The position numbers and the translations under genes are program-made. DNA of 64,000 nucleotides, from positions 1,550,001-1,614,000 of the forward strand of contig NZ_CP097322.1 of assembly GCF_023515955.1 (NCBI RefSeq). The letters run 5' to 3'. Positions 2,941 through 43,576 of the stretch are shown here, piece after piece. Origin of the DNA: Streptomyces sp. RerS4 (lineage in GTDB: Bacteria > Actinomycetota > Actinomycetes > Streptomycetales > Streptomycetaceae). The notes below the pieces were generated by a model, which saw nothing but the letters and a program-made list of their open reading frames with translations, made no database searches and was not told the DNA's origin. Positions within the stretch are counted from its first letter, which is position 1. Every line of letters begins with the position of its first letter.

Positions 2941-3030
2941 GGGTCGGACACGTCGGGCAACACGTCGCACACGTCAGGCACGTCAGGCACTCCGTCCGGC
3001 ATGTCCGGCACGTCGGGCACGCACGTCGGC
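2941..3030. repeat. Degenerate 9-10 bp direct repeats (CACGTCGGG-like)
   Basis: About nine imperfect tandem units (CACGTCGGGC, CACGTCAGG, CATGTCCGG and similar) fill the space between the acetyltransferase stop and the cobL ribosome site. Read on the minus strand they encode a PDVPD-type low-complexity string. I see no promoter or riboswitch in them. Confidence 0.6.
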
Positions 3031-3066
3031 CGCATCACGCACGACAGGCACGGTGAGACTACCTGG

Positions 3067-3852
3067 TCAGCCTCGGTTGCGGTCGGCGCCGACGGTGTGG
3101 CCGGCCGCGTCGGCCCGCTGCCCGAAGGGGGGTCGGGCGTCGTGGTCCGGGCGGATCGGGCGGGGTGGGTGGGGGGCGTGCCCGGCACGGTCCCGGGGGT
3201 CTCGGTAGTCACCGTAGTCCCGGTAGTCGCGGTACTCGTCGTAGGCGTCGTAGTCGCCGAAGGCGTCGGTGTCGTCGAGGTCCTCGGGCAGGAGGCTCCA
3301 GACGATGACGTCGGTACGGGTCTGCGTCCAGTCGCCGTCGGCCGCCTGGACGCGCACTATCCAGGCGTTGCGCAGGACGCCCTCGCTGATGCAGCCGATC
3401 TTCTGGGCGACCTGCTGGGCGGCGGTGTTGTCGGCGGCCGTGCGCAGTTCGAGGCGTTCGAAGCGCTGGTCGCGGAAGAGCCACTGGGCGACGGCGAGCA
3501 CGGCCTCGCTCGCGTAGCCCTCGCCGCGGGCCCAGGGGGCGGTGACGTACCAGGCGTCGGCGGTGCGGGTGCGCCAGTCGGTGTGGCGCAGGTGGACGAT
3601 GCCGACGAGGCGGTGGGTGAGGAACTCGGTCACCGCGAAGACGATCCCTCGGCCCTCGGTGCGCTCCGCGTGGGAGAGCCGGGTGGCCCAGGCGTGGGCG
3701 TCGTCGTGGGTGTAGGGGTGCGGGACGGTGGTCCAGGCGGTGATGTGCTCGTCGTTCATCATCTCGGCGAGCGCGGTGACGTCCTCTTCCTCGAACGGGC
3801 GCAGCACCAGCCGGTCCGTGCTGATGGTGACGTCCGGGAAGGTGGTAGTCAT
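3067..3852 (-). CDS. GNAT-family N-acetyltransferase (RimJ/RimL type) with Asp-Tyr-rich tail
   Basis: The predicted role is transfer of acetyl from acetyl-CoA to an amine, possibly a protein N-terminus; the substrate is unknown. The 261 residues start at the ATG at 3852, with GGAG seven bases upstream, just inside a longer open frame. Near the start is TDRLVLRPFEEED, as in RimJ/RimL-like enzymes, then the acetyl-CoA region with APWARGEGYASEAV and later NTAAQQVAQKIG. The last ~80 residues are unusual: a run of DYDAYDEYRDYRDYGDYRD followed by a Pro/Arg-rich tail. It precedes cobL on the same strand but the link is not functional as far as I can tell. Confidence 0.85.
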   Translation of the reverse strand: MTTTFPDVTISTDRLVLRPFEEEDVTALAEMMNDEHITAWTTVPHPYTHDDAHAWATRLSHAERTEGRGIVFAVTEFLTHRLVGIVHLRHTDWRTRTADAWYVTAPWARGEGYASEAVLAVAQWLFRDQRFERLELRTAADNTAAQQVAQKIGCISEGVLRNAWIVRVQAADGDWTQTRTDVIVWSLLPEDLDDTDAFGDYDAYDEYRDYRDYGDYRDPRDRAGHAPHPPRPIRPDHDARPPFGQRADAAGHTVGADRNRG

Positions 3853-3981
3853 GCGCAGCTCCATGCCTGAGACCGTGGTGCGACCGGGGGTACGGGACCG
3901 TGTGTGCGGGTCGTAGGCCACAGCATGCAGCATCGGCCCGGGGATGTGCAGGGCCGGGCCGCCCGTGAGCGGGCAGAGCGC

Positions 3982-4055
3982 GGCCCCGCGCGCCCGGATG
4001 GGTGCGCGGGGCCTGCGATCCGGCGTTCTACCAGGCGGTTTCCGCCAATTGGCGG
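3982..4055. terminator. Two hairpins downstream of metQ
   Basis: CCGCCAATTGGCGG (4042-4055) is a perfect palindrome only four bases after the metQ stop. A second hairpin has arms GGCCCCGCGC (3982-3991) and GCGCGGGGCC (4004-4013) with a 12-base loop. There is no U-tract, as is usual in Streptomyces. They likely end the metNIQ message. Confidence 0.6.
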
Positions 4056-4059
4056 TTCG

Positions 4060-4929
4060 TCAGGAAGCGGCCGGGGTGCCGAAGGCCGGGGTGACCGAGC
4101 CCTGGTACTTCTCCTCGATGAACTTCTTGACCTCGTCGGAGTTCAGGAGCTTGGCGAGCTTCTGGACGCGCGGGTCGTTCTGCTTGCCTTCCTTGACGGC
4201 GAGGAAGTTGGCGTACGGGTTGCCCTCGGCCTTCTCCAGGACCAGGGCGTCCTTGACGGGCGAGAGGTTGGCCTCCAGGGCGTAGTTGCCGTTGATGATC
4301 GCGGCGTCCACGTCGTTCAGGGCGCGGGGGACCGTGGCGGCCTCCAGCTCCTTGAACTCCAGGCCCTTCTTGTCGGTGATGTCGGAGAGCTTGGCGCTGG
4401 TGCCGACGCCGTCCTTGAGCGTGATGAGGTTGTTCGCGGCGAGCAGCTGGAGCGCGCGGCCCTCGTTGGTGGTGTCGTTGGGGACGGCGATGGTCTGGCC
4501 GGCCTTGATGTCGGTGAGGGCCTTGACCTTCTTGGAGTAGAGGCCGAGGGGCTCCAGGTGCACGTTCACGACGGGCACGATGTGGGTGCCGTTCTTCTTG
4601 TTGAAGTCGTCGAGGTACGGCTTGTGCTGGAAGTAGTTGCCGTCGACCTGGCCCTGCTCGGTGGCGGTGTTGGGCAGGACGTAGTCCGTGAACTCCTTCA
4701 CCTCCAGCTTGAGGCCGTCCTTCGCCGCGAGCTTGTCCTTGACGAAGTTCAGGATGTCGGCGTGGGGGCTCGGGGAGGCCGCGATGACCAGCGGCTTGCT
4801 CTCGTCGACCTTGCCGCCGTCGGTCTGGGCGGAGGAGGACGGGTCCGAGGAGCTGCCGCAGGCGGTGAGGCCGAGGGCGAGCGCGGCGGACGCGGCGGCG
4901 AAAGCGGTGAGCTTGATGTTCTTGCGCAC
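4060..4929 (-). CDS. metQ: Methionine ABC transporter substrate-binding lipoprotein
   Basis: This is the extracytoplasmic methionine receptor of the MetNIQ importer, anchored to the membrane by lipid. 289 residues from a GTG at 4929 with GAAAGG eight bases upstream; a longer open frame exists but has no signal peptide at its start. VRKNIKL and a hydrophobic stretch lead to the lipobox LTAC-G. The mature part is NlpA/MetQ-like: LVIAASPSPHADIL, GNYFQHKPYLDDFN and DAAIINGNYA. It is the third gene of metN-metI-metQ, with a 103-base gap after metI. Confidence 0.95.
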   Translation of the reverse strand: MRKNIKLTAFAAASAALALGLTACGSSSDPSSSAQTDGGKVDESKPLVIAASPSPHADILNFVKDKLAAKDGLKLEVKEFTDYVLPNTATEQGQVDGNYFQHKPYLDDFNKKNGTHIVPVVNVHLEPLGLYSKKVKALTDIKAGQTIAVPNDTTNEGRALQLLAANNLITLKDGVGTSAKLSDITDKKGLEFKELEAATVPRALNDVDAAIINGNYALEANLSPVKDALVLEKAEGNPYANFLAVKEGKQNDPRVQKLAKLLNSDEVKKFIEEKYQGSVTPAFGTPAAS

Positions 4930-5032
4930 GAAGAGTGCCTTTCTTGCGGTACGGGTCCTGGTGGGACCCGCTGGTGGTGGCCCAAGCACGACAAGTGCGG
5001 GCTCTCTTGGGGGGTGAAACGGGGGGGTTGGT

Positions 5033-5701
5033 TCAGGCTGTCCGGCCGCGGCGGGCGAGGACGCGAACCACGCCGTCACCGATGAGCTGGATCACCGTGA
5101 CGAGCGCGATCAGCACGACGACGGTGGCGACCATGAAGCCGGTCTCGAAGCGCTGGAAGCCGTAGGTGATGGCCTTGGAGCCGAGGCCCTCGCCGCCGAC
5201 CGCGCCGGCCATGGCGGAGTAGCCGACCAGGGTGATGACGGTGGTGGTGACGGCGGCGACCAGCGAGGGCAGGGCCTGCGGGAGGAGCACCTTGCCGACG
5301 AGGGTCGGGATGCCGCCGCCCATCGACTCGACGGCCTCGATCAGGCCGTGGTCCACCTCGCGGACGGCCGTCTCGACGAGGCGGGCGAAGAAGGGGATCG
5401 CGCCGATGGCGAGCGGGACGATCATGGCGGTAGGGCCGATGAAGGTGCCCACGACGGCCGTGGTGACCGGGATCAGGGCGATCAGCAGGATGATGAACGG
5501 CAGCGAGCGGCCGACGTTCACGATCACGCCGAGGACCTTGTTGAGCGGCCGGTTCTGAAGGAGGCCGCCCTTGTCGGTGAGGACGAGGAGGATGCCGATG
5601 GGCAGTCCGCCGAGGACGGTCACCACGGTGGACCACAGGACCATGTAGAGGGTGTCGTACGTGCCCTGGGTGAGCAGGGGCTGCATTTCGGACCAGGTCA
5701 C
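5033..5701 (-). CDS. metI: Methionine ABC transporter permease
   Basis: Integral membrane subunit of the MetNIQ importer. 222 residues with about five or six membrane segments and the ABC permease coupling loop EAVESMGGG...KVLLPQALP. The GTG start at 5701 overlaps the metN stop (GTGA), so translation is probably coupled. The spacing and content match MetI-type permeases (PF00528 family). Confidence 0.95.
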   Translation of the reverse strand: MTWSEMQPLLTQGTYDTLYMVLWSTVVTVLGGLPIGILLVLTDKGGLLQNRPLNKVLGVIVNVGRSLPFIILLIALIPVTTAVVGTFIGPTAMIVPLAIGAIPFFARLVETAVREVDHGLIEAVESMGGGIPTLVGKVLLPQALPSLVAAVTTTVITLVGYSAMAGAVGGEGLGSKAITYGFQRFETGFMVATVVVLIALVTVIQLIGDGVVRVLARRGRTA

Positions 5702-6771
5702 TTGGCACCGTCCTTGACCAGCGCGGCCAGTTCGTCGTCGATCGCGTCGGCCGCGTCGGTCTGCTCGTCCCCGTCGACCACGTCCACCTGGAGCCCCTGC
5801 TCGCGCAGGAAGCCGACGGGCACGACGTTGTCCTCGTAGCGGCCGGGGAGCTCGATGCGCATGCGGCCGATCTGGCGGCCGGCGACGGTGTCCATCGCGG
5901 CGCCCAGGATCGAGATGTCGATGTTGTACGTGCGCGAGAGCTGCGAGATGACCGGCTGGGTGGCGGCCTCGCCGTGGAAGGTGACGTCGACCACGGTGTG
6001 GTCGGGGCCGGTGGCGCTCCCGCTGACCGGGAAGAGTTCGCCGGCCAGCTCGGAGCCGGGAGTGGCGAGCAGTTCGGCGACGGTGCCGGATTCGATGATC
6101 CGGCCCCGCTTCATCAGGGCGGCGGAGTCGCAGACGGCCTTGACGACGTCCATCTCGTGCGTGATGAGCAGGACGGTCAGGCCGAGCTGCCGGTTCAGGT
6201 CGCGCAGCAGCTGGAGGATCGAGCGGGTGGTCTCCGGGTCGAGGGCGCTGGTGGCCTCGTCGGAGAGCAGCACCTTGGGGTCGCCGGCCAGGGCGCGGGC
6301 GATCCCGACGCGCTGCTTCTGACCGCCGGAGAGCTGGGTGGGGTAGGCCTTGGCCTTGTCGGCGAGGCCGACGAGGTCGAGGAGTTCCAGGGCCTTGCGG
6401 GAGCGTTCGCGGCCGGAGACGCCGAGGATTTCCAGGGGCAGTTCGATGTTGGCCTGCACCGTGCGCGAGGACAGCAGGTTGAAGTGCTGGAAGACCATGC
6501 CGATGCGGCTGCGGGCCTCGCGGAGCTCCTTGCCGGCGCGGCGGCCGCGACCGGCGAGCGCGGTGAGGTCGACGCCGTCGACGGTCACGGTGCCGGTGGT
6601 GGGGCGCTCCAGCAGGTTCACGCAGCGGATGAGGGAGGACTTGCCGGCGCCGCTCTGGCCGATGACTCCGTAGACCTCGCCCTCCCGGACGTGCAGGTCG
6701 ACGCCGTCCAGGGCGGTGACCTCACGGCCACGGGACTGGTAGACCTTCGTGAGGCCCGATGTGGTGATCAC
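5698..6771 (-). CDS. metN: Methionine ABC transporter ATP-binding protein with NIL domain
   Basis: Cytosolic ATPase of the methionine importer. Walker A is GQSGAGKSS, the signature LSGGQKQRVGIARAL, Walker B VLLSDEATSALD, followed by the switch His in LLITHEMD. The C-terminal ~75 residues (TVVDVTFHGEA onward) look like the NIL domain that binds methionine and inhibits transport when the cell is replete. I chose the GTG at 6771 because ITTSGLTKVYQ is the usual start; an upstream ATG at 6825 would add 18 Arg-rich residues. The gene is preceded by a leader ORF and operator-like repeats. Confidence 0.94.
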   Translation of the reverse strand: MITTSGLTKVYQSRGREVTALDGVDLHVREGEVYGVIGQSGAGKSSLIRCVNLLERPTTGTVTVDGVDLTALAGRGRRAGKELREARSRIGMVFQHFNLLSSRTVQANIELPLEILGVSGRERSRKALELLDLVGLADKAKAYPTQLSGGQKQRVGIARALAGDPKVLLSDEATSALDPETTRSILQLLRDLNRQLGLTVLLITHEMDVVKAVCDSAALMKRGRIIESGTVAELLATPGSELAGELFPVSGSATGPDHTVVDVTFHGEAATQPVISQLSRTYNIDISILGAAMDTVAGRQIGRMRIELPGRYEDNVVPVGFLREQGLQVDVVDGDEQTDAADAIDDELAALVKDGAK

Positions 6772-6963
6772 AGGATTTCCGTCGCTGTCGAGTGCACGGC
6801 GCAGCGGGTGCCGGGCACGGGGCAAACATCTGGGGACGCGATACGGGTCGAACCGTCACAAAAAGCCGGGGTCGACGCGTGCGCGGGGCAGGAGCGGTCC
6901 GTGGTGCGTGGACAGGCTCGGGCCGGTCTCGCTTCGGGGCGCGAGATAGCGGGGAAGGGGCCC

Positions 6964-7050
6964 TCAGAAGGCGCACATTCGACACATACAACGAGCACCG
7001 GGCGTCATCGTCGCCTCGGTCGCAAGGGTGCGGCTGCTCGTCGTGGTCAT
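6964..7050 (-). CDS. Short Cys/Met-rich leader peptide in front of metNIQ
   Basis: A 28-codon frame runs from the ATG at 7050 to TGA at 6964-6966 and ends RCMCRMCAF. A second ATG at 7008, with GAGG five bases upstream, would give a 14-residue peptide, MTPGARCMCRMCAF; I find this start more likely. The rest of the leader to metN is ~190 bases and holds short inverted repeats (for example CTCGC/GCGAG) and a TTTTT run. Three Cys and two Met codons among the last eight suggest a ribosome-stalling sensor of sulfur amino acid supply acting on metNIQ. That role is inference from position and composition; short attenuator peptides are known in actinobacteria. Confidence 0.6.
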   Translation of the reverse strand: MTTTSSRTLATEATMTPGARCMCRMCAF

Positions 7051-7090
7051 GGGCCCCAGTAAAGCAGACCGTACGACTCACCGATCAAAA

Positions 7091-7130
7091 CTGTCCGGAT
7101 AGCGGACAGGTTTTCGCCGGATCGCGGACA
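7091..7130. promoter_or_regulatory. Candidate tandem operator upstream of the metNIQ leader
   Basis: CTGTCCGGATAGCGGACAG (7091-7109) is a palindrome with 7-bp arms and a 5-bp centre, flanked by A4 and T4. A second copy of its core, CCGGATCGCGGACA (7117-7130), repeats CCGGATAGCGGACA (7095-7108) exactly 22 bp away, two helical turns. The pair sits 41 to 80 bases upstream of the leader ORF, where the -35 region is expected. I do not recognise the regulator. Confidence 0.5.
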
Positions 7131-7137
7131 CCCACGG

Positions 7138-7350
7138 TCACCTCGGGTCGCGCGTCTCCAGCCTCACTCCGGCTTCCCCGACCTGTGCGGACACGGCCGA
7201 CACGGCCGACAGGTCCTCGACGATCACGTGGGCGTCGAGTTCGGCGGCGGTGTGCGTTGTGGTCAAGGCCACGGTCCGCGTGCCGGCCGCGCGCCCGGCG
7301 GCGAGGCCGGCGGGTGCGTCCTCGACCTCCTCCAGGAAAGCGCGCACCCA
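7138..7350 (-). pseudogene. C-terminal remnant of a HAD-family phosphatase
   Basis: The minus strand encodes EDAPAGLAAGRAAGTRTVAL followed by TTTHTAAELDAHVIVEDLSAV. This is the last ~65 residues of a beta-phosphoglucomutase-like HAD hydrolase (motif IV EDAPAG and the Rossmann end). The nucleophile Asp and cap domain are missing: upstream the frame turns into unrelated sequence at ~7350, where the next gene's promoter begins. I read it as a truncated relic. Confidence 0.65.
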
Positions 7351-7394
7351 GGGGTGGGCGCATCGGGTCTTTCGGCCCGTAATACCCTCGCTGC

Positions 7395-7763
7395 ATGCTC
7401 GACGCCCTGACGGTCGCCATCGGTGCGGCCGCCCTCGCCCTCGCCGCCTGGTGCGGCCACGCCGCATGGCGGGACCAGCCGACCAAGGACTGGCACTTCA
7501 TCGGCATGGCCGTGGTGACCGTCCTGGTCCTGGCCCAGCTGGTGGTCGGCCTGGTCCAGCTGGCCCGCGGCGAGAAGCCCGGCCAGGGCACGGTGATCTT
7601 CGTGGCCTACCTGCTGGGCGCCTTCGCGGCGGTCCCGGCAGCCGGGATGCTCTCGCTGAGCGAGCGGACCAAGTGGGGGTCGGTGACGGTGGCCGCCGGC
7701 GCGGTCGTCCTCGCCGTCCTCGAAGTACGCCTCTACGACATCTGGGGAAGCACCGGTGCCTGA
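7395..7763 (+). CDS. Small integral membrane protein
   Basis: 122 residues, almost all hydrophobic, with four predicted membrane spans (residues ~4-24, 36-57, 68-87, 95-113). No known motif; function unknown. The ATG at 7395 has no ribosome site but lies nine bases after TAATAC (7380-7385), so the message may be leaderless. It overlaps the next gene by eight bases, so the two are likely made together. Confidence 0.75.
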   Translation: MLDALTVAIGAAALALAAWCGHAAWRDQPTKDWHFIGMAVVTVLVLAQLVVGLVQLARGEKPGQGTVIFVAYLLGAFAAVPAAGMLSLSERTKWGSVTVAAGAVVLAVLEVRLYDIWGSTGA

Positions 7764-8172
7764 CACGACGACCGCCACGCCCGAGGGCCGCGGGCGCCTC
7801 GTCTCCGGCCCGGGGCTGCTGCTGGTGTGGGTCTACGGAGTCATGGTGGTCGGCGCCGTCTCGCGCTCGGCCTACCAGATCTCCACCGAGTTCGACCGGG
7901 CGCCGCTGGCGTACTCGCTGTCCGCCGCGGCGGCCCTGGCCTACGCCTTCATCACGTACTCGCTGGTGCGCGGCGGGGAGCGGGCCCGCAAGGTGGCGCT
8001 GCTGTGCTGCGGCGTCGAGCTGGCCGGTGTGCTGGCCGTCGGCACCTGGACGCTGGCACGTCCGGAGGCCTTCCCGGACGCGACCGTGTGGTCCGACTTC
8101 GGGATGGGCTACCTGTTCATCCCGGTGATCCTGCCGATCACCGGGATGCTGTGGCTGCGCGCCAAGCGGTAG
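7756..8172 (+). CDS. Small integral membrane protein, partner of the preceding gene
   Basis: 138 residues from a GTG at 7756 inside the end of the upstream gene (translational coupling). After a ~20-residue polar N-terminus there are four hydrophobic spans (near GLLLVWVYGVMVVGAV, LAYSLSAAAALAYAF, VALLCCGVELAGVLAV and YLFIPVILPITGMLWL). No catalytic or transport motif is seen. The pair looks like a conserved two-gene membrane module of unknown role. Confidence 0.75.
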   Translation: MPDTTTATPEGRGRLVSGPGLLLVWVYGVMVVGAVSRSAYQISTEFDRAPLAYSLSAAAALAYAFITYSLVRGGERARKVALLCCGVELAGVLAVGTWTLARPEAFPDATVWSDFGMGYLFIPVILPITGMLWLRAKR

Positions 8173-8207
8173 GCGGCCGAACGGCGCACAGCCCAACGGC
8201 GGACAGC

Positions 8208-8230
8208 CCGCGGCGGACAGCCCGCCGCGG
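8208..8230. terminator. Hairpin between convergent genes
   Basis: Arms CCGCGGCGG (8208-8216) and CCGCCGCGG (8222-8230) with a 5-base loop, inside a short tandem repeat of GGCGGACAGCCC units (8184-8235). It lies between two genes that face each other and may end both transcripts. Confidence 0.55.
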
Positions 8231-8235
8231 ACAGG

Positions 8236-8739
8236 TCAGGCGCTGACCGCGAAGTCGGTCGCGTCGGCTTCCTTCTCCAGGATGACCAGGTGCACGCCGT
8301 CGGAGGCGGTGCGGTTGCCGACCGCGAGGTAGCCCGCCTTGCGGTACATGCGCAGGTTGGCCTCGCTCTTGACGCCGGTGTGCAGACGGAAGCGGGTGGT
8401 TCCGGCCTGGCCGGCCAGGGACGCCTCCACCGAACGCAGCAGCCGGGCCCCGAGTCCGTGGCCCTGCATCCGGGGGTGCACGCACAGCTTGGCGATGCTG
8501 GCCGTGCCGTCCTCGCCGAGGCTCCCGCGCACCGCTCCGACGACCTCGTCGCCGAGCCGGGCCACCAGGACGGTGTCCCCGGCCAGCTCGGCTTTGAGGG
8601 AGTCCAGGGACTGGGTGAGCGGCTGGATGAGGTAGTTGCCGTAGAGCTCGGCCTCCCGCTGGAACGCCAGATACTGCAGCTTGAAGATCTGCTCGGCGTC
8701 TTCGGCGGTCGCCGCCGAAATGGTCACGCTCATGCCCAT
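8236..8739 (-). CDS. GNAT-family N-acetyltransferase
   Basis: 167 residues. SVTISAATAEDAEQI opens the fold; the acetyl-CoA pyrophosphate loop is visible as HPRMQGHGLGARLL, followed by RLHTGVKSEANLRMYRKAGY. The substrate is unknown. I chose the ATG at 8739 for its GGGAGG nine bases upstream; a second ATG at 8733 is also possible. It lies 37 bases after the sigma-factor gene on the same strand and may share its transcript. Confidence 0.88.
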   Translation of the reverse strand: MGMSVTISAATAEDAEQIFKLQYLAFQREAELYGNYLIQPLTQSLDSLKAELAGDTVLVARLGDEVVGAVRGSLGEDGTASIAKLCVHPRMQGHGLGARLLRSVEASLAGQAGTTRFRLHTGVKSEANLRMYRKAGYLAVGNRTASDGVHLVILEKEADATDFAVSA

Positions 8740-8776
8740 GTGCGCATGCCTCCCGCTCACCTGGTAGCCCTGTGGT

Positions 8777-9304
8777 CTACCGCTCCCTTCCCCGCAGGCC
8801 AGGAGCCGCAACCTCTGCAGCCAGCATTCTGCGCAGACATCCCAGGCAACGGGAACGGACAGGCCCCAAACTTCCTTGTGAGATACCCAACTCTCCTGCG
8901 ATTTCACGGTAGGTGAGGTCTCTGGGCGAAAGAAGTGCCCTTATCAGTTCCGGGCAACGCCCCGGCAATCGGGCGACCGCCGATCGGAGGGCCCGGTTCT
9001 CCTCGCCGTGCAGCAGGGCGCCCTCCGGCTCGCCGGCCACGTCCCCCGGGGTGGCTCCGTAGGGGATCTCGCGTCGTGCCCGGCGCCGGGCGAGCCGGGC
9101 CTCCGCGCGCACCGCGCGCCGTATCCAGCGGGCCCGGCCCGTGGGGTCGGCTTCGCGCGGGCCGCGCTCCAGGAGCCTGACCCAGACGGCTTGTTCCAGG
9201 TCGGCGGGGTCCACTCCGGCGGCCGGGGCCTCGGCCTCGGCCTCGGCGGAGAGCAGCGGGCCCAACTCGTCGTAGAGGTCGGCCTTCACCTTCAGCAGGT
9301 CCAT
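8777..9304 (-). CDS. RNA polymerase sigma factor, ECF-like
   Basis: 175 residues. Region 2 appears as DLEQAVWVRLLERG...ARWIRRAVRAEARL; region 4 as ARLPGRCPELIRALLS, followed by DLTYREIAGELGISQGSLGP, a DNA-binding helix-turn-helix. No anti-sigma gene is adjacent, and no ZAS-type motif is seen nearby. The ATG at 9304 lacks a clear ribosome site. It is probably cotranscribed with the following acetyltransferase. Confidence 0.8.
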   Translation of the reverse strand: MDLLKVKADLYDELGPLLSAEAEAEAPAAGVDPADLEQAVWVRLLERGPREADPTGRARWIRRAVRAEARLARRRARREIPYGATPGDVAGEPEGALLHGEENRALRSAVARLPGRCPELIRALLSPRDLTYREIAGELGISQGSLGPVRSRCLGCLRRMLAAEVAAPGLRGRER

Positions 9305-9377
9305 GCCGGGCGGGACGCGGGCGGCGGGCCGGGCGGTTTCCCCGCCGGGCCCGGCCCACTCGTACGGGAACCCGTGC

Positions 9378-10565
9378 CTAGCGGTTGACGGCGCGGCCCG
9401 GCCGGAAGTCCTCGGCGGCGAGCAGGCCCGTGTCCGGGTGGTCGGTGAAGATGCCGTCGATGCCCAGCTCGAAGTAGCGTCGCAGGGCCCCGAGGGCGTC
9501 CCCGTAGGCGGCCGGGTCGGTGCCCTTGCGGTACTCGGCGGGCAGGAAGCTGTTCTCGTTGCGCGCCGTGTAGGGGTGCAGGATCAGGCCGCGGGCGTGG
9601 GCGTCGCGCACCAGCGTGGTCGGGGCGGCGAGCTTGCCGGCCGCGTCGCGGGGCACGACGAGGTCGAGGGTGGGGCCGATGCCCTGGGCGAAGCCGGAGA
9701 TCCACTTCAGGCCCTCGGGCTTGACCAGGTCGGCGACGGTACGCGGGTCCTTGGCCACCTCGAAGTCCCAGGGCCGGGTGTGCGCGGCCGACAGCAGCAC
9801 CACGCGCGGCGCGGACACGAGCCGGGAGAGCCGCTGGATGCTGGAGGGCTCGAAGGACTGGAGGAAGACGGCGGCGTCGCGGCCGTCGCGGCGGAAGCGG
9901 CGCAGGAGCTTGGCGAGCGGCTCCTCCAGTCCGAGGCCGAGGCCGCGGAAGTAGGTGGGGTGCTTGGTCTCGACGTGCAGCCAGACGCGGCGGTCGCGCC
10001 GGCGGCCCTCGCGTTCGGCCCAGCGCAGGACCTCTTCGAACGTGGGAACGGCCCAGCGGCCGTCGTAGAGCGTGTTGCGCTGCCGGAGGGCGGGGATGCG
10101 TTCCTTCGCGCGCAGGGTCTTCAGCTCGGCGAGGGTGAAGTCCTCGGTGAACCAGCCGGTGACGGAGACGCCGTCGATGGTCTTGGTGGTGCGCCGGGAG
10201 GCGAAGGCGGGGTGGTCGGCGACGTCGGTGGTGCCGCCGATCTCGTTCTCGTGGCGGCAGACGAGATGACCGTCCTTGGTGGGGACGAGGTCCTGCTCGA
10301 TGACGTCGGCGCCGAGGTCGAGGGCGAGTTGATAGGAGCCGAGGGTGTGCTCGGGGCGGTAGCCGCTCGCACCCCGATGACCTATCACCGTCGGGGAGGG
10401 CAGGTCCCGGTAGCCGCCCTCGCGGCCGTCGTCGTGTCCGCCGGCCGCCCGCGAGTCGGCGGTCACGGCGGAGGCGGTCGTGGCCGCCAGGCCGGTCATG
10501 CCGGCTCCGGCCGCCAGGACGGCCGCGCCCAGTACCGTGCGCCGCGCTGCCCCACCCTGTGTCAT
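9378..10565 (-). CDS. glpQ: Secreted glycerophosphodiester phosphodiesterase
   Basis: Hydrolyses glycerophosphodiesters to glycerol-3-phosphate and an alcohol outside the cell. The 395-residue protein begins with a twin-arginine-like signal (ARRTVLG, then a hydrophobic run ending ATTASA). The catalytic core is clear: GHRGASGYRPEHTLGSY, then IEQDLVPTKDGHLVCRHE, and near the end the metal site FTDHPDTG. The start at 10565 has AAGGAG eight bases upstream. It is divergent from the PlsC gene, which fits a shared phospholipid theme. Confidence 0.92.
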   Translation of the reverse strand: MTQGGAARRTVLGAAVLAAGAGMTGLAATTASAVTADSRAAGGHDDGREGGYRDLPSPTVIGHRGASGYRPEHTLGSYQLALDLGADVIEQDLVPTKDGHLVCRHENEIGGTTDVADHPAFASRRTTKTIDGVSVTGWFTEDFTLAELKTLRAKERIPALRQRNTLYDGRWAVPTFEEVLRWAEREGRRRDRRVWLHVETKHPTYFRGLGLGLEEPLAKLLRRFRRDGRDAAVFLQSFEPSSIQRLSRLVSAPRVVLLSAAHTRPWDFEVAKDPRTVADLVKPEGLKWISGFAQGIGPTLDLVVPRDAAGKLAAPTTLVRDAHARGLILHPYTARNENSFLPAEYRKGTDPAAYGDALGALRRYFELGIDGIFTDHPDTGLLAAEDFRPGRAVNR

Positions 10566-43277: not shown

Positions 43278-43360
43278 GGATCCTCCTCGGTAGCACCACA
43301 CGGATGTCTGGCAGACAACCGCTGACGTCTTGTGTCGTCAGACCTACCGCGGCGGGAACC

Positions 43361-43391
43361 AAAAAAGCCCCGCCGGGCACAGGCAGGGGCT
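43361..43391 (-). terminator. Leader terminator (attenuator) upstream of infC
   Basis: On the minus strand AGCCCC...GGGGCT with an inner GCC/GGC pair (one bulged T) is followed at once by TTTTTT. The hairpin spans 43366-43391 and the T-run 43361-43366, about 85 bases before the infC start. A second small hairpin (CTGACG/CGTCAG) follows. A true U-tract terminator inside the leader of a ribosomal operon points to transcription attenuation. Confidence 0.75.
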
Positions 43392-43576
43392 CCAAAACAA
43401 CCGGAGCACCGCCGCGTGCGAACCGCGGGGCGCAGACTCGGGCGGCTTTCCATCGTCCGTACGGAACGATGGATGCCGCCTGACCGGATGACCCGCCTCC
43501 CCGGAGGGTGGTCGGGTGGGAGAACGGAGCCTCCACTTGTGGGCCGGGCACAACAGTGTCCGGCCGGTCGAAGTAC

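Follow-up and report, generated by a model that had tools for sequence, protein, structure and literature searches.

A conserved leader ORF upstream of the methionine importer operon metNIQ in Streptomyces, probably a ribosome-operated attenuator

Organization of the metNIQ locus

The window analyzed here is a stretch of 64,000 nt from Streptomyces sp. RerS4; coordinates refer to it, and the features described lie on the minus strand. Three genes of a methionine importer operon were identified: metN, encoding the ATP-binding subunit (5698-6771, GTG start), metI, encoding the permease subunit (5033-5701), and metQ, encoding the substrate-binding lipoprotein (4060-4929, the GTG start being chosen by eye inside an ORF covering 4060-5079). 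Assignments rest on family and Pfam matches: the top NCBIfam families of the three genes are metN, metI and metQ, all three under NCBIfam's own cut-offs, and the Pfam domains of the three products pass their cut-offs. The best named MetN relatives share up to 90% identity.

Upstream of metN, an ORF of 28 codons plus TGA (6964-7050) translates as MTTTSSRTLATEATMTPGARCMCRMCAF followed by the stop. It is separated from the metN GTG (6771) by 192 nt, in which no other gene was seen. A sequence-only reading of this DNA had singled out a short Cys/Met-rich ORF in front of metN, and the ORF is confirmed: its last eight residues, CMCRMCAF, include three Cys and two Met. In a crude set of genes taken from the window, 2.3% of codons encode Cys or Met; at this rate the probability of finding at least five of them among eight codons is 3e-7. 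Since this test is post hoc, conservation is the stronger argument. Judged on sequence, the ORF has the clustered control codons by which classical ribosome-mediated attenuators are recognized, and a run of adjacent Cys codons is absent from it.

No credible Rfam match was found at the locus, SAM riboswitches included, with either gathering scores or permissive settings, in agreement with the first reading, which saw no SAM riboswitch motif. The sole permissive match (E 6.2) is to a human-type lncRNA model and falls far under its cut-off. The leader peptide is likewise without a match to the NCBIfam model NF042934 (cis_reg_atten); six leader peptides elsewhere in the genome (L337-L342) match this model above cut-off. 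Two further observations concern the window: positions 43360-43572 match the Streptomyces RNA Scr1601 (Rfam RF02830, 154.5 bits), and a frame at 7138-7340, ending ...EDAPAGLAAGRAAGTRTVALTTTHTAAELDAHVIVEDLSAVSA..., resembles by eye the tail of a HAD-type hydrolase without its front.

Distribution and variation of the leader ORF

Among 198 Streptomyces genomes, 191 have a MetN match with an E-value of 1e-140 or lower. We analyzed 72 upstream regions, corresponding to all even-numbered loci among the MetN matches listed. A homologue of the leader ORF is present in 72/72 of them, with 0 to 8 mismatches across the first 40 bases. Three of these loci (L182, L186 and L194) encode exactly the peptide published for metL of S. 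lividans. The pattern CRMCAF followed by a stop occurs in 34 of 199 genomes, compared to 0 for the reversed control, and the 19 loci located by the P4 hairpin alone (see below) all carry the leader ORF. Short frames are plentiful in this DNA, 68 of at least 20 codons overlapping positions 3000-9500, and a frame arising by chance could be imagined on that ground; such a reading is contradicted by the ORF in all 72 upstream regions and by the zero count of the control, and we give it practically no weight.

The leader ORF was also present in 39 of 40 hand-picked loci of the family, and among named loci it was observed in 14 Streptomyces, two Kitasatospora and one Actinomadura. The named loci were located through CGAATG and are therefore no evidence for this motif. 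Together, the 72 even-numbered loci, the 39 family picks (one of which, L320, belongs to Streptomyces) and the 17 named loci form the set of 128 ORFs used below. With a covariance model of the element and an E-value limit of 1, matches were obtained in 117 of the 150 genomes of the family; the E-values are rough, and matches near E 1 are mostly short fragments, probably due to chance. At 1e-5 or better, 84 genomes remain, of which 37 belong to the genus and 47 to other genera. In no genome was a second match better than 1e-3, the next one in the window's genome being at E 0.86.

Outside the family, 16 metN-like loci were considered. Two have an upstream frame of some resemblance: an Arg-Met-Cys-rich one at L277 and a Cys-containing MTTT frame at L285. 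Nothing comparable was seen upstream of the others, L284 offering too little sequence. The L277 frame is long (RVMCRGTRMCGTARMCAMGG), lies about 180-300 nt upstream of metN in a genome of another family, and is perhaps a distant counterpart of the metL leader.

Control codons 21-26 (Cys Met Cys Arg Met Cys, 6973-6990) contain an Arg-Met pair conserved in 128/128 homologues, encoded by CGA ATG in 126 and followed by Cys in 98 cases and by Arg in 30. The last 12 residues contain between one and five Cys (a single one in 6 ORFs) and between one and four Met (a single one in 21). By these counts the constant core is Arg-Met rather than Cys. In the crude gene set, CGA accounts for 57 of 1122 Arg codons and TGT for 12 of 115 Cys codons. 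ORF lengths range from 26 to 37 codons and change by whole codons; tandem Arg-Met-Cys expansions occur, e.g. RCMCRLMCRMCAF and RRMCRMCHMCRMCA. In divergent genera the Arg-Met-Cys end is kept and the ORF body differs. At one Actinomadura locus (L024:965-1051) the leader body is unlike the others, but the Arg-Met-Cys end is kept, and the sequence after the stop, P4 included, is nearly unchanged.

There is good support for the view that the ORF encodes a regulatory leader peptide of metNIQ: its position is constant, its length changes by whole codons, Arg-Met-Cys expansions occur, and an independent prediction has been published for S. lividans. The leader peptide proposed at the outset is upheld to this extent, a Cys core and a ribosome site of its own (next section) being the parts that were not borne out.

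Start site and upstream repeat

The leader ORF had been credited with a weak ribosome site of its own. We saw no Shine-Dalgarno-like site; the ATG is preceded instead by a -10-like box, TTTACT (7058-7063), at a distance of 7 nt. Of the 128 homologues, 127 have TTTACT or a near match at this place, with 6 or 7 nt between its end and the ATG. With such a spacing transcripts should begin at or beside the ATG, and a leaderless start is predicted here.

Farther upstream lies an inverted repeat, TGTCCGCTATCCGGACA (TGTCCG-N5-CGGACA, 7092-7108), which is a possible operator, as yet a candidate. The sequence TGTCCGNNATNCGGACA exists as a single exact copy in the genome, and similar repeats precede many homologous leaders. 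The repeat is overlapped by 7091-7109, the only terminator-like site in 6700-7200, which is upstream of the leader.

Regulation could also be sought at the promoter, through either SenR or a DNA-binding protein that recognizes the TGTCCG-N5-CGGACA repeat, with the ORF adding little. The uniqueness of the exact repeat speaks for it, and so do expression data from S. coelicolor: in the available text of PMC4991794, H2O2 treatment raises metN, metI and metQ 5.2-, 3.5- and 2.3-fold together with cys genes, a mutant without HbpS-SenS-SenR shows no gene up-regulated at that study's threshold, the H2O2 induction of metN being lost, and SCO1559 has a predicted SenR site. SCO1559 was not among the five gel-shift fragments described in the same text, and promoter control leaves the constant Arg-Met and the silent sites frozen in 72/72 regions unexplained; we consider it improbable. 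Induction of metNIQ by H2O2 also fits a signal of sulfur amino acid shortage.

The ORF body as a constrained RNA

Among the 56 ORFs that are 28 codons long, codons 5, 7, 10-13, 17-19, 24 and 25 are invariant even at silent positions, and changes at codons 6, 8, 14 and 15 mostly alter the amino acid. The synonymous-site comparison suggested with the first reading thus cuts both ways: there is no variation at silent sites, yet several of the variable codons change the residue, which places much of the constraint on the RNA. An RNAalifold consensus puts most of the frozen codons located before the control region in three stems (6988-7044), P1 (ORF nucleotides 7-15/55-63), P2 (19-21/28-30) and P3 (31-39/47-54), and the variable codons in loops. 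Folding of the ORF body apparently explains the frozen silent sites.

All 72 Streptomyces have G-C at pair 14-56 of P1; among the 26 rows that represent other genera, 23 have A-U. This compensated change in the alignment converts Ser5 to Asn and Ala19 to Val and may be one event. Within Streptomyces, stems P1-P4 have only two double changes, with 99.2% of cells paired: on sequence comparison they vary too little to prove pairing. The ORF body has a mean z of -1.8 against shuffles in Streptomyces; eighteen chosen ORFs, mostly divergent, range from -1.9 to +1.8, many of the divergent ones being no better than shuffles. The stretch from the leader to metN (279 nt) has a z of -1.46, and that from the ORF to P4 (131 nt) a z of -2.35.

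Such frozen silent sites, together with the near invariance of P1-P3 and of the P4 loop GCCCCGAA, would also be expected of a metabolite-binding, riboswitch-like RNA overlapping the ORF, whose letters are conserved for the fold, the coding sense being secondary. This reading sits badly with length changes that add whole Arg, Met and Cys codons, with an Arg-Met-Cys end kept in divergent genera despite a different body, and with the absence of an Rfam match at the locus. We regard it as quite remote, more so than promoter control.

Hairpins P4 and P5 and a possible competing duplex

Two hairpins follow the ORF. P4 (CTCGCGCCCCGAAGCGAG, 6928-6945) starts 18 nt after the stop codon, and its 18-mer occurs without mismatch in 19 of 22 Streptomyces genomes and in none of 224 further genomes of the class. 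P5 (6792-6818), which immediately precedes the metN ribosome site, is supported both by fold scores and by covariation. Its mean z against shuffles is -2.15 in the 72 Streptomyces, -1.94 in 37 family picks and -2.66 in 17 named loci. The arms could be located in 101 of 126 sequences, where they read GTGC/GCAC in 84 cases and GTAC/GTAC in 14, with a G-U pair in 2 and a broken pair in 1.

The 3' arm of P5 and the adjoining UCGACA (6786-6797) show complementarity to the control codons. The 15 bases surrounding the last Met codon were scored against this segment, with either the target or the query shuffled. In the 72 Streptomyces the z values are -2.5 (shuffled target) and -2.6 (shuffled query); they are -1.2 and -1.5 in the 37 family picks, and -1.7 and -1.6 in the 17 named loci. 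For the Streptomyces controls, an ORF stretch of equal length taken elsewhere gives +0.8 and +0.5, and the P5 5' arm -0.6 and -0.3. Conservation of both strands can mimic such a signal, and the control-strand changes UGCCGA or CUCCGA occur without compensation on the metN side. As the 3' arm of P5 cannot hold both partners, P5 and the control-codon duplex would compete. Of the mutually exclusive structures that had been proposed as a check, one partner, P5, is thus well supported, and the other comes from shuffle tests without covariation. We treat the duplex as a tentative step of the switch, to which we give rather less than an even chance.

Other pairings were considered. For the ORF tail and a mid-leader segment, GCCCCGCGCAC, pairing with the downstream regions did not exceed that with their dinucleotide shuffles (mean z +0.15, 128 loci). 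Own pairs were better than permuted ones, with 0 of 300 permutations reaching them for the segment and 3 of 300 for the whole region. The motif CCGCGTCAC is found in 5/5 Streptomyces ORFs of the MCD type and in 0/67 others; among family picks it is found in 9/12 MCD and 6/15 MCA or MRA ORFs, and among named loci in 3/4 versus 1/10. This pairing is unproven. Pairing of the mid-leader segment with a second segment, counted in those Streptomyces that allowed the two to be located, 35 of 72 (25 GCAC-GTGC, 5 GCAT-ATGC, 3 GCAT-GTGC, 2 GCAC-ATGC), was set aside as too patchy, and a pairing between the leader start and the metN start chosen by RNAalifold (z -0.4 to -0.9) was dropped.

The same leader and the same sensing could serve transcription attenuation, with a stalled ribosome preventing premature termination, either Rho-dependent or at P4/P5. 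Classical attenuators of Actinobacteria work in this way, P4 and P5 are conserved hairpins, and the metL authors, in the available text of PMC8079986, regard their element as a transcription attenuator. A scan of 6700-7200 found no U-tract intrinsic terminator, nor any other terminator-like site, between the leader ORF and metN, and published metL is described in that text as having no typical Rho-independent terminator. Moreover, were P5 a terminator, a stalled ribosome masking its competitor would turn the operon off. We see transcription attenuation as less likely than not, and as the leading rival of the model below.

A proposed model for metNIQ control

We propose that the metL leader is probably a ribosome-operated attenuator of metNIQ. 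Transcription would start at or next to the leader ATG, and a ribosome would load on the leaderless 5' end and read through the ORF, with its folded body (P1-P3), up to final Arg-Met-Cys codons that are partly rare. Should charged tRNA-Met or tRNA-Cys be short, the ribosome would stall there and cover the control strand; P5 would then form and the metN ribosome site would stay open. Should no stall occur, the control strand would pair with the P5 3' arm and UCGACA, and metN would be held down. An importer should rise on starvation, and a ribosome masking the closing strand gives the right sign without a terminator. In this model we infer that the ribosome stalls, which amino acid it senses, and that translation, not transcription, is the level controlled.

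A bolder version of the same model, which we hold to be unlikely, is that the control codons themselves close the metN ribosome site, a single RNA segment both measuring Met/Cys supply and delivering the output; Arg-Met would maybe act as well as a nascent-peptide arrest motif for a sulfur metabolite, and the Arg-Met-Cys repeats would set the gain. If true, this would be a family-wide sulfur sensor replacing the SAM riboswitch at metNIQ. More generally, a ribosome-operated leader would bear on how sulfur amino acid uptake may be controlled at metNIQ without such a riboswitch.

Comparison with known systems

Mycobacteria reportedly possess leaderless polycysteine ORFs with Cys codons near their end, located before a sulfur amino acid operon (Canestrari 2020), and one citing paper classes them as translation attenuation. 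The leader in the window resembles them as a short ORF with a predicted leaderless start, Cys codons towards its end and a sulfur amino acid operon downstream. It differs in lacking two adjacent Cys, in its interleaved Met and Arg, and in the operon concerned.

With the classical trp and ilv attenuators of Actinobacteria, as presented in the available text of PMC1262725, metL shares control codons in a short leader ORF and putative competing RNA structures; unlike them, it has no U-tract terminator that we could find. The same text, a survey of Actinobacteria, reports no conserved RNA element or structure before methionine operons.

The closest system is metL itself (SLIV_29928), predicted in 2021 in S. 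lividans TK24 as an attenuator upstream of metNIQ (PMC8079986). Among the papers listed by our literature searches, we recognized no further one as describing the metNIQ leader of Streptomyces. The element is thus already known as a one-species prediction. Operon, position and peptide plan are the same (MSTTSDRTPATEATTTPGARCMCRRMCAF there, one residue longer than the peptide encoded here), and S. lividans metL is reported as leaderless and with hairpins. The available text of that paper credits Met and Thr codons, leaves termination open and covers a single species, without structure or comparison. To this prediction the present analysis adds the presence of the leader in every sampled Streptomyces genome and in relatives, Arg-Met with Cys as the constant codons, an ORF body constrained as RNA, and a covarying hairpin, P5, before metN with a candidate competing partner in the control codons.
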